From Symbiobacterium sp. (GTDB lineage: Bacteria > Bacillota > Sulfobacillia > UBA995 > UBA9673), in contig DYFB01000035.1 in NCBI GenBank assembly GCA_020725405.1, positions 1 to 41,534 of the forward strand: 41,534 nt of DNA, written 5' to 3'. Below the pieces are notes generated by a model. It saw only the letters and a list, made by a program, of their open reading frames with translations. It ran no database searches and was not told the origin of the DNA. A program made the position numbers and the translations under genes. Shown here in pieces: positions 22,813-40,584 of this stretch (position 1 is its first letter; each line of letters opens with the position of its first letter).

Positions 22813-22888
22813 CGCCGGCAGGAGTTCGCCTCTCCGGCGAGAACCTGTCCTTCCCCCAGGCAAATCCTGGAAGAAGGCGGTGGCAAGC

Positions 22889-23170
22889 GTGAGGGTCACG
22901 GATGTGCGGGTGAGGCGGCTCAACCCCGAGGGCCGGATGAAGGCGGTGGCGTCGGTCACCATCGACGGGGAGTTCGTCATCCACGACGTCCGCGTGGTCG
23001 AGGGGCACAACGGTCTCTTCGTGGCCATGCCCAGCCGGAAGACCCCCGACGGAGAGTTCCGGGACATCGCCCACCCCATCACCAGCGAGGCCCGGGAGCG
23101 CATCCAAAGCGCGGTCCTGAAGGCCTTCGACGAGGCCCAGGCGGTCACCCTGGAAGCCGCCGAGGCCTGA
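22889..23170 (+). CDS. spoVG: Septation / stage V sporulation protein SpoVG
   Basis: A 93-residue SpoVG, a small nucleic-acid-binding regulator that affects cortex formation and asymmetric septation in B. subtilis. The sequence follows the family almost without gaps: [28 protein letters not shown], then [19 protein letters not shown] and [11 protein letters not shown] 22889 is selected because AAGGCGGTG is spaced six bases before it; GTG 22880, three codons earlier, is the alternative. A hairpin precedes the gene and another follows it. The ridA and purR genes found next to spoVG in Bacillus are absent. Confidence 0.94.
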
Positions 23171-23396: not shown

Positions 23397-24953
23397 TTGG
23401 CCTCGAGGCTCCTTGAAGTCGCCATCCTGGCGGCCGGCCAGGGCAGGCGCATGAGGTCCGCGCTGCCCAAGGTCCTCCACCCCGTCGCCGGGCGCCCGAT
23501 GGTCGGGTACGTCCTCGACGCCGTGCAGGCCCTCCGGCCCGACCGCATCGTGGTCATCGTCGGCTACCAGGCCGACCGGGTGAGGTCCTTCCTGGGTGAG
23601 GGGGTCACTTACGCCCACCAGGAGGCGCAGCTCGGGACGGCCCACGCGCTCCTGGCCGCCCGGGACGCTCTCGGCCGCGGCGAGGCCGACCTCCTTGTGG
23701 TCTACGGCGACGTCCCGCTGGTCCGCCCGGCCACGCTGGCCTCGCTTCTCGACCGCCACCGGGCGACCGGGGCGGCGGCCACCGTCCTCACCACCGTTCT
23801 GGACGACCCCAGCGGCTACGGGCGCGTCATCCGCGACCCGACGACCGGGCGCGTCCTCCGGATCGTCGAGGACGCCGACGCGGACGCGGATGAGCGAGCC
23901 GTCCGCGAGATCAACACCGGCATATACGTCTTCGCCGCGCCGGTCATCTTCGGGTACCTCGAGACTCTTGCCCCCGCGAACCGCCAGGGCGAGTTCTACC
24001 TCGTCGACGTTGTGGCTCCGCTCCTGCGGGACGGTCGCGTGGTGGAGACCCTGAGTGCCCCCGACCCCGGCGAGGCTGAGGGGGTCAACAGCCGGGTCCA
24101 GCTCGCCCGGGCCGAAGCCGCGAAGAGGGCCGAGATCCTGGCCGGCCTCATGGCCTCGGGGACGACCGTCGTCGACCCCTCGTCCACCTTCGTCGATTGG
24201 GGCGTCGTGGTCGGGCCGGACACCATTCTCGAGCCCGGCACGATCCTCCGCGGCCGGACGACCGTCGGAGCTGGCTGCTCGATCGGGCCGCACAGCTACG
24301 TGGAGGACTCGGTCGTCGGCGACGGCTGCCGGGTTTGGATGTCGGTCGTCGAGGGAAGCCGCCTCGAGGCCGGGGCGGCCGTGGGCCCGTTCAGCCATCT
24401 CCGCCCCGGGACGATTGTGGGCGAACGGGCCCGGGTGGGGAACTACGCCGAGCTCAAGAACAGCCGGGTGGGTCGCGGGGCGAAGATACAGCACCACAGC
24501 TACGTGGGTGACGCCGTGGTCGGACCCGAGGCCAACATCGGGGCGGGTGCCGTGGTCGTCAACTACGACGGCCGGGCCAAGCACGAGACGTCCATCGGCG
24601 CCGGGGCGTTTATCGGCTGCAACACCAACCTCGTCGCCCCGGTCGCCGTGGGCGACGGCGCCTATACGGCCGCTGGCTCAACGGTGACGCGGAACGTCCC
24701 GCCGGGAGCCCTGGCTGTCTCGCGGGTCCGGCAGGAGACCATCGAGGGCTGGGTGGAGCGCTGCCGCCCGGGGACGGTGTCCGCCCGGGCGGCCCGGGCG
24801 GCCCGGGCGGCCCGGGAGGCCGGGGAGGCCCGGGAGACCGGGGAGACCGGGGAGACCCGGGAGGCCCGGGAGACCGGGGAGACCGGGGAGACCCGGGAGG
24901 CCCGGGAGACCCGGGACCCTCCCGCCGACGCGGGCGAAGGTGGGGAGGACTGA
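23397..24953 (+). CDS. glmU: Bifunctional UDP-N-acetylglucosamine pyrophosphorylase / glucosamine-1-phosphate N-acetyltransferase
   Basis: GlmU makes UDP-GlcNAc for peptidoglycan in two steps. The N-terminal uridyltransferase (about 1-225) has [34 protein letters not shown] and VVYGDVPLV. The C-terminal left-handed beta helix (about 250-450) has hexapeptide repeats, [20 protein letters not shown] and the catalytic [13 protein letters not shown] 23397 follows GAGGAGGAG. The total is 518 residues against about 455 in relatives: residues from about 460 on form a repeat tail of Ala-Arg-Ala then Arg-Glu-Thr-Gly-Glu-Thr-Gly-Glu units encoded by a 9-bp tandem repeat. The core looks fully active. Confidence 0.95.
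24783..24915. repeat. 9-bp tandem repeat inside the 3' end of glmU
   Basis: About 14 units of a 9-base motif (CGGGCGGCC, CGGGAGGCC and CGGGGAGAC variants) run in frame with glmU. They encode Ala-Arg-Ala and then Glu-Thr-Gly repeats. The period is a multiple of three, so copy number can change without frameshift. Confidence 0.9.
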
Positions 24954-38450: not shown

Positions 38451-38572
38451 GGCCGGGGCCGGCCGGGTCTAAAGACCCCCACCGCACATAGAGATTAGCG
38501 GGTAAGGGGCAAGGCACCACCAGGGTGGAGGGCGCGACGCACCCAGACCCACCGGGCCCGGGAGGCAGAGCC

Positions 38573-38866
38573 GTGGACGAGAGCGAGTTCGGCGGTGCCG
38601 AAGGTCACGTCGTGACCATCACGAACCGGGAGCAGGTCGCCATCGACGGGGTCATCCATGTCGACAGCTTCGACGACCAGGAAATCGTCGTCGATACCGA
38701 CCTCGGGACCCTGAGCCTCAAGGGCGAGGACCTCCACATCAAGCAGCTCAACCTTGACGACGGCTACCTCGAGATAGAAGGGGTCGTCAACGCCCTGAGC
38801 TACAGCCTGCGGGCCAAGGGGCGCGGGGCCAAGGCCAAGAGCCTCCTCGAACGCATCCTGAAGTAG
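38573..38866 (+). CDS. yabP: Sporulation protein YabP
   Basis: A 97-residue YabP-family protein (97-100 is normal). It has HVVTITNREQVAIDGVIHV, then FDDQEIVVDTDLGTLSLKGEDLHI, read here as two motifs (FDDQEIVVDTDLG; LSLKGEDLHIKQL) and GYLEIEGVVNALSY, matching the conserved YabP/YqfC fold of short beta strands. In B. subtilis it is a sigma-E-dependent mother-cell protein needed for normal sporulation. GTG 38573 follows GGGAGG at seven bases. An in-frame GTG at 38525 would add 16 non-conserved residues. CATAGAGA at about 38487 is a weak sigma-E -10 candidate. Confidence 0.94.
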   Translation: MDESEFGGAEGHVVTITNREQVAIDGVIHVDSFDDQEIVVDTDLGTLSLKGEDLHIKQLNLDDGYLEIEGVVNALSYSLRAKGRGAKAKSLLERILK

Positions 38867-38935: not shown

Positions 38936-38965
38936 TTGGAGGTTTTTCCCGGGGCTGAATAGAAT
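38936..38965 (+). promoter_or_regulatory. Promoter of the lytic transglycosylase gene
   Basis: TTGGAG (38936-38941) and TAGAAT (38960-38965) are 18 bases apart. The start near 38972 gives a leader of about 30 bases containing the SD GGAGGAGG at 38991-38998. Confidence 0.7.
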
Positions 38966-39002
38966 ACCAACGCCCGCTGTCGACGCGGACGGAGGAGGAC
39001 CC

Positions 39003-39929
39003 TTAGCCTCGGACCCCGGACTCACGCCGACCGAAAGCCCGCCGGACCAGGCCGCAGGCCGGACCCGCCCCGGGTCGGGCGTTTCGCTCGTCCTCCGGGT
39101 CGCCGGCGCCCTCCTGCGCGGGGTCGTCTACGTTCTGGCCGGACCGGTCATCATCCTGAGCGACCTCATCCAGCCCGACCCGGAGGTCGACCGGGCTTGG
39201 GTCATCGGGTTCATGGTTTTCCTGACCGCGGCCATCGCCGTCACCTGGGGCCTCGGCTACATGGTCACCGTCGAGACCCTGCAGGGGAACGCCCTCCTCT
39301 CCGAGTACGTAGAGATAGGGTCGCACCTGGCCTCCGTCCCCCACCTCGAGCCCATCCGGGTCCACGCGGCGCGGCACGGGCTCGACCCGGCCCTGGTCGC
39401 GGCCATCATCTCGCAGGAGAGCGGCTTCAGGGCCAACGCCGTCTCGCCGGCGGGGGCCCGGGGTCTGATGCAGCTTCTTCCCTCCACGTGGCGCCACGTC
39501 CGTCCGTCTTCGGCCTGCCCGGGGACCCACGGTCCGCCGGCCTGCGGGCCCGACTGCATCTTCGACCCGGAGGCCAACATCGCGGCGGGCACGGCCTACT
39601 TCGCTGAGCTCCTCCGCGAGTTCGACGGCAACATCGTTCTCGCGTTCGCGGCCTACAACGCCGGGAGGAGCGCCGTCCGGGCCTATGCCACCGGGCCGGA
39701 TGGCTCCCTGGGCGAGGAGCTCCCTCCTTTCCGCGAAACAAGGGCTTACGTCACGCGGGTCCTCTCCTTCTGGGTCGGCCTCCGGGCCGGAGGAATTCCG
39801 GACGTCGTCACCCTCTCGATCGAGGAAGCCCGCCTCCTGCGCCAGCTGGCCACGATCATGCCCGGGGTCGTCCTCGGCCTGTGGGGGCTTTTCGCCCTCT
39901 GGGTTCTGAGGCGGCTCGAAGACCGATGA
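39003..39929 (+). CDS. Membrane-anchored lytic transglycosylase (SLT domain), apparent TTA start
   Basis: The SLT domain is clear: ARHGLDPALVAAIISQESGF with the catalytic Glu, NAVSPAGARGLMQLLPSTW, EANIAAGTAYFAELL, and AFAAYNAGRSAV. A four-Cys insertion (SACPGTHGPPACGPDC) sits in the middle. Two N-terminal hydrophobic segments precede it and one closes the chain. The first ATG in frame is 39213, but it has no SD and cuts into the second hydrophobic segment. The frame is open with normal G/C third positions back to 39003, where GGAGGAGG stands four bases before a TTA codon. The same spacing precedes glmU's TTG (GAGGAGGAGCGCC-TTG). I infer initiation at TTA, or a G-to-A change of a TTG start. 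It lies between yabP and yabQ. Confidence 0.8.
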   Translation, partial: LASDPGLTPTESPPDQAAGRTRPGSGVSLVLRVAGALLRGVVYVLAGPVIILSDLIQPDPEVDRAWVIGFMVFLTAAIAVTWGLGYMVTVETLQGNALLSEYVEIGSHLASVPHLEPIRVHAARHGLDPALVAAIISQESGFRANAVSPAGARGLMQLLPSTWRHVRPSSACPGTHGPPACGPDCIFDPEANIAAGTAYFAELLREFDGNIVLAFAAYNAGRSAVRAYATGPDGSLGEELPPFRETRAYVTRVLSFWVGLRAGGIPDVVTLSIEEARLLRQLATIMPGVVLGLWGLFALWVLRRLEDR

Positions 39930-40008
39930 GCCGGCCGGGCTCCGCATATCATGCCGGAGGGACCGCCGTCATCCGGCCCTGACCCTGGCCCCGGGAGAGT
40001 TGCCCTCC

Positions 40009-40584
40009 ATGCTGGGGATAGACACTCAGCTCCTGTGCCTCGCGGTCATGTTCCTGACCGGAGCCGCCCTGGCTCTCTTCCACGACCTCTGCGGGGTGCT
40101 GTCAGGCACCACGCCCGCTCCCGGTGCGGCGGCGAGCCGGCGGCGGACGCTCGCGGGGCGACGCCCGATCCTCCGCCCGTGGGATATCGTCTTTTGTCTT
40201 CTGGTGACCCCGGTCGTCTTCGCCGCCGTCCTCGTTTCGAACCGGGGGGAGCTCCGTCTCTACGTCTTTCTCGGGCTCGCCGCGGGTCTCGGGGCCTATA
40301 CGTGCCTCGCCGCCCCGCTCGTCAGGACGGCTGCGGCGGGCCTGCGGGACCTCGCGGTCCGGGTGCTCAGGGCCGCCGGAGCCACACTGGCGCGCCCGCT
40401 CCAGGCGGCCGTCCGGACGGCCGCCGCGGGCGCGCGGCTCCTGACCGGGGCCGGGCGCCGCCTCACCGGGGCCGGGTGCCGCGCCGGTACAGCTCTCCTG
40501 CGGCGGGTGGGACGCACCGCCTCCGGGCCGGCCCGGCTCGGACGCAGGCTCCTGGCAGGATTCAGGCGCCGCGCCGGGGAATAG
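40009..40584 (+). CDS. yabQ: Sporulation protein YabQ
   Basis: A 191-residue YabQ-family membrane protein needed for cortex formation in B. subtilis. The family pattern is visible: DTQLLCLAVMFLTGAALALF with HDLCG, then RPWDIVFCLLVTPVVF, AVLVSNRGELRLYVFLG and GAYTCL. Three or four membrane segments fill residues 1-105. The rest is an unusual Ala/Arg/Gly-rich tail with repeated AGxRLL-type elements. ATG 40009 is nine bases after GGGAGAG; TTG 40000 is the alternative. The order yabP-(SLT)-yabQ-divIC is conserved except for the transglycosylase insertion. Confidence 0.9.
   Translation: MLGIDTQLLCLAVMFLTGAALALFHDLCGVLSGTTPAPGAAASRRRTLAGRRPILRPWDIVFCLLVTPVVFAAVLVSNRGELRLYVFLGLAAGLGAYTCLAAPLVRTAAAGLRDLAVRVLRAAGATLARPLQAAVRTAAAGARLLTGAGRRLTGAGCRAGTALLRRVGRTASGPARLGRRLLAGFRRRAGE

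Follow-up and report, generated by a model that had tools for sequence, protein, structure and literature searches.

A conserved TTA codon behind a strong Shine-Dalgarno sequence is the likely start of a lytic transglycosylase gene in spore-forming Bacillota

The window, by which we mean the whole 41,534-nucleotide stretch of DNA that was analysed, comes from an uncultured spore-forming lineage of Bacillota and has at its end a sporulation cluster consisting of a SpoIID-like gene, yabP, a gene for an SLT-domain protein and yabQ. The subject of this paper is the SLT gene, which lies between yabP and yabQ, and the place where its translation begins. The relevant features are these:

38525 to 38866, plus strand: yabP, the upstream neighbour (Pfam PF07873, E=1e-20)
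38938 to 38967, plus strand: predicted sigma-H-type promoter GGAGGTTTT-N12-ATAGAATAC (consensus match; same 12-bp spacer in other genera)
38991 to 38998, plus strand: Shine-Dalgarno (SD) sequence GGAGGAGG, with CGGACGGAGG invariant in three genera (sequence and cross-genus comparison)
39003 to 39005, plus strand: TTA, the proposed start codon (7-nt spacing from GGAGG; conservation)
39003 to 39929, plus strand: SLT-domain lytic transglycosylase, 308 aa (Pfam PF01464, E=2e-27; orthologue alignment; AlphaFold2)
39213 to 39215, plus strand: first in-frame ATG, read as a Met inside the second membrane helix and not as a start (no SD; no orthologue starts here)
40000 to 40584, plus strand: yabQ, the downstream neighbour (Pfam PF09578, E=8e-12)

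The reading frame of the SLT gene opens at 38862 and runs without interruption to a stop at 39929. Its product scores 95 bits against PF01464, where the cut-off is 21, and carries the catalytic Glu together with the GLMQ and AYNAG motifs; ES, GLMQ and AYNAG are invariant across the orthologue alignments. While the catalytic domain matches that of SLT-family lytic transglycosylases (PF01464; Slt70 and MltE folds), the window protein differs from Slt70/MltE-type enzymes by the membrane helices predicted at either end and by its location between yabP and yabQ. The N-terminal helices are predicted at residues 26-56 and from 64 onward, with a further helix at the C-terminus, and an AlphaFold2 model (mean pLDDT 70, built on only 7 sequences) places the first two at 26-56 and 64-107. 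By these positions, a protein starting at ATG 39213 would be without the first helix and have a truncated second one. One genome of the same family (G002) has no SLT orthologue, no yabQ and no counterpart of this cluster's yabP; Spo0A and one other YabP-family gene are retained, and the trio seems to have been lost together.

The initial annotation had proposed that translation might begin at TTA 39003, and its description of the site stands up to inspection. The TTA lies four bases 3' of the perfect SD GGAGGAGG and 7 bases from the first GGAGG, a spacing which is the mode for TTG starts in the genome of the window (G000), so that a strong SD is correctly placed for this codon; glmU, cited in the annotation as having a similar context with TTG, does have its TTG at 23397. 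Between 38971 and 39196 all frames are devoid of ATG, GTG and TTG; of 162 G000 genes that have an SD and begin with a usual codon, only 1 lacked these triplets in the 192 nt following its start, the median being about 4. As was also claimed, 70 codons remain open ahead of ATG 39213, with G or C in the third position in 62 of them, and this ATG is without an SD. The open frame ahead of the first usual start, at 117 codons, ranks 4th of 352, which is high, if not decisive alone. The folding energy around the TTA is unremarkable (-10.4 kcal/mol, the median being -9.7), and a leader structure masking the start was accordingly rejected.

One part of the earlier description has to be replaced. Instead of a sigma-70-type promoter TTGGAG-18-TAGAAT, we read a sigma-H-type element GGAGGTTTT-12-ATAGAATAC, a layout shared by most orthologues. 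The sigma-H consensus is RNAGGAWWW / RNNGAATWW (PMC8510167), taken here with a spacer of 11-12 nt, and the window element departs from it once in the -35 and once at the last -10 base. The predicted layout with a 12-bp spacer recurs upstream of the SLT gene in G001 (with GAAC), G003, G004, G005, G007, G018, G031 and G065, and eight loci match a pattern of middle stringency for which the chance expectation is about 0.004 per 250 nt. A transcript from this predicted promoter, starting a few bases past 38967, would carry some 30 nt of leader and leave no possibility of an upstream start codon.

Is the region ahead of ATG 39213 protein? Over the 70 N-terminal codons dS is 1.28 and dN 0.50 between G000 and G001, and dS is 1.11 and dN 0.36 between G001 and G003; this synonymous excess vanishes or reverses in shifted frames, with the reservation that the alignment was built on protein and favours the true frame somewhat. 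The comparison of G000 with G003 gives a weak signal (dS 0.56, dN 0.46), which we count against a start at UUA. Over the whole gene dS is 0.6-1.0 against a dN of about 0.3, with no stops. Comparative analysis indicates that selection acts on the SLT frame beginning at the TTA.

We gathered SLT orthologues from the family, the order, the class and a public genome collection; four family genomes (G000, G001, G002 and G003) were searched, all of them draft assemblies in many contigs, which again we count against the UUA reading, and a scan of genome contigs for relatives closer to the window genome returned none. The disputed N-terminal region, with its first membrane helix, is present in 17 of 17 other orthologous loci. 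Most orthologues start 138-147 codons before the motif S-x-x-GARGLMQ, mostly with ATG, GTG or TTG: the best candidates are TTG in G018 (context GGAGG-N7-TTG-GCC), G004 and G026, and GTG and ATG in several genomes each. The distance is 147 codons for the TTA of the window gene (L001), 144 for the TTA of G003 (L003), and 143 and 140 for the TTG of L006 and L005; in G001 (L002) the TTA stands 169 codons before the motif, an offset accounted for by an insertion of about 25 residues. ATG 39213 lies 77 codons before the motif, and the matching residue is the start in 0 of 17 other loci. The alignment of homologues located between yabP and yabQ, which the initial annotation had called for, therefore shows the 70-residue N-terminus to be shared, with starts at the equivalent place and TTG in several, and starts at the residue of ATG 39213, which would have spoken for the shorter protein, do not occur.

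Two orthologues are unusual in other ways. In G006 (L007) the SLT gene adjoins an apparent S4-domain gene, matches to yabP and yabQ being absent from that genome, and has no ATG, GTG or TTG start; its best candidate, a CTG behind GGGAGG, may be the start. In G005 (L004) there is no visible SD and a GTG start lies about 8 bases past the -10 element, a layout suggesting that the mRNA may be nearly leaderless.

The alternative that survives best is a start at ATG 39213, or at another near-cognate codon such as ACG 39021 or CTG 39111, with the TTA element belonging to the leader only. ATG 39213 is indeed the first usual start and near-cognates do occur in frame. However, every one of these candidates lacks an SD, while a perfect SD would be left without a start; the orthologous proteins reach the TTA region; and the near-cognates are not conserved, whereas TTAGC is conserved at a fixed spacing. 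We consider such a start unlikely.

The conservation of the TTA itself extends over three genera. In G003, which belongs to a different genus and whose SLT protein is 63% identical, we find CGGACGGAGG-N7-TTA-GC, the start site reading GGACGGAGGAACGCCC-TTA-GCT (also given as CGGACGGAGGAACGCCC-TTA-GCT), and the upstream frame is free of ATG, GTG and TTG over its whole length. In G001, of a third genus and with 68% identity, the site reads CGGACGGAGGTATGGCG-TTA-GCC, and here an in-frame ATG-GCG-TTA-GCC puts an ATG two codons upstream of the TTA and 1 base from GGAGG. All three genera share CGGACGGAGG and TTAGC unchanged, and the spacer between these two has diverged; two genera thus carry the TTA alone and the third carries it with a badly placed ATG. 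TTA makes up very few of the Leu codons, namely 27 of 15219 or 0.18% in G000 (636 kb), 0.63% in G001 (400 kb) and 0.42% in G003 (128 kb). At an ordinary Leu position, TTA in all three would have a probability of about 5e-8 if the genomes were independent, a figure that can serve as a guide only, the three sharing ancestry. That only three genera have the TTA, and that one of them also has a nearby ATG, points against the UUA reading.

Could the TTA be kept for some other reason, as an operator or RNA element over the start or as a bldA-like rare Leu codon, with the ATG two codons before it as the start in G001? The ATG there is in frame, TTA is very rare in the family genomes, and the conserved block reaches CGGAC ahead of the SD. 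However, where G001 has ATG the window genome has GGA and G003 has ACG, a 1-nt gap from GGAGG to ATG is absent among the ATG starts in our G001 sample, and the spacer is not conserved. We regard this explanation as improbable, slightly more so than a start at a near-cognate or at ATG 39213. A lost start, by TTG to TTA mutation or by sequencing error, in a gene poorly expressed or dead, would need one base only and finds TTG at the homologous place in G018 and G004, but it is very improbable, since parallel persistence across genera at 63-68% protein identity, in a gene whose dS exceeds its dN, is not expected of a gene that has died or of an error arising by chance. The base error suspected at 39005 is excluded by the identical TTA in an independent genome of another genus, and a recent mutation finds no support, the TTA occurring without a usual start in two genera and also in a third.

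Initiation at UUA would appear to be a property of this gene. In the four family genomes GGAGG-N5-9-TTAGC has 23 matches, fewer than the reversed control, and only 3 of the 23, the three SLT orthologues, precede a long gene. With no enrichment over the control and no other match heading a gene, genome-wide reassignment or widespread use of TTA starts can be rejected. We also surveyed the triplets that follow GGAGG-N6-8 in 1.23 Mb, or 55%, of G000 (the TTAGC form in all of it): start-less coding frames occur at about 120 per 1000 for ATG, GTG and TTG and at 1.7 per 1000 for non-start triplets. TTA heads such a frame in 1 of 40 cases, the SLT gene, and CTG in 3 of 351. A special initiator tRNA with anticodon UAA was sought in the genome, which is 95% complete, and not found; the tRNA-Leu(UAA) is ordinary.

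The surveys also brought up likely CTG starts behind an SD at L131 (minus strand, 2092), L165 (minus strand, 12391) and, in G001, L200 (minus strand, 8068), offsets being counted on the reverse complement; no ATG, GTG or TTG lies near these CTGs, and we take the products to be a GNAT/Eis-like protein, a QueH-like protein and a PIG-L-like deacetylase, respectively. Another unusual start is that of infC, the gene for IF3, which is known for a conserved AUU, AUC or AUA start and for autoregulation. Its first codon is ATA in G000, where it follows GGAGG, and in G002, while G004 and G005 have ATC; at L181 (contig C17 of G000, near 22836-23100, minus strand) and at L180 (G002) the site reads GGAGGTGACACTT-ATA-AGT-CGA. 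This unusual codon, varying between relatives, is the known self-control of IF3. The other ATA match of the survey, L123, looks like a non-coding frame.

How does a UUA start compare with what is known? Reportedly there has been a 64-codon measurement in E. coli by Hecht in 2017. UUA forms two mismatches with the CAU anticodon and IF3 discriminates against such pairing, which counts against a start here. Like the SLT gene, infC has a non-canonical start that is conserved and preceded by a strong SD, but its codon is a single-base near-cognate and it is autoregulated, while the SLT codon has two mismatches and no evident feedback. In S. aureus, cvfC1 (AUU) and ccpN (AUA) have conserved weak starts with strong SDs and about 10-30% of AUG output, confirmed by ribosome profiling (PMC13009471). 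They share with the SLT gene the pairing of a conserved weak codon with a strong SD, and differ in being profiled single-base near-cognates. By analogy, the nearest precedent is Streptomyces sigR, with a GTC start two positions off ATG and an AGGAGGTG ribosome-binding site, conserved in 32 of 34 species, on which repression by IF3 was found experimentally (PMC5472188). The two cases are alike in the two-position departure from ATG, the very strong conserved ribosome-binding site, the GC-rich sporulating host and conservation across species; they differ in that sigR is a sigma-factor gene starting with GTC whose repression by IF3 is experimental, while the TTA of the SLT gene is known from sequence. 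A search for a bacterial UUA start codon turned up no report in the literature, coverage of which was incomplete; the phrase 'TTA start codon' led to an insect study and to sponge mitochondrial introns, neither of them bacterial.

Taken together, the conserved element made up of promoter, SD and TTA, an N-terminus that is coding and the lack of a usual start lead us to view UUA at 39003 as quite likely the codon at which translation of the SLT gene truly begins, and as one retained by selection, most likely to limit the amount of enzyme. We also hold it probable, as a wider statement, that UUA is a true initiation codon in bacteria and that selection has maintained it in a single gene while at least two genera diverged. 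Under this reading the sigma-H-type promoter would yield a short-leader mRNA on which the strong SD (GGAGG, 7-nt spacer) positions UUA in the P site of the ribosome; fMet-tRNA would begin there, at low efficiency, although codon positions 1 and 3 are mismatched, with IF3 discrimination probably limiting initiation. Reduced SLT expression is then a reasonable inference, and the weak codon would be retained by selection, most likely because it keeps a membrane-anchored peptidoglycan-cutting enzyme scarce.

If true, a conserved TTA start would be the first such case in bacteria, as far as we have found, and would extend natural start codons to a triplet with two mismatches to the initiator anticodon. 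Since gene finders assume ATG, GTG or TTG, such genes would be truncated or missed. The SLT gene could offer a simple system for the limits that IF3 and SD strength set on the choice of start codon. More generally, it would mean that a strong SD can carry initiation at a codon with two mismatches, and that this can serve selection as a means of rationing an enzyme that cuts the cell wall.
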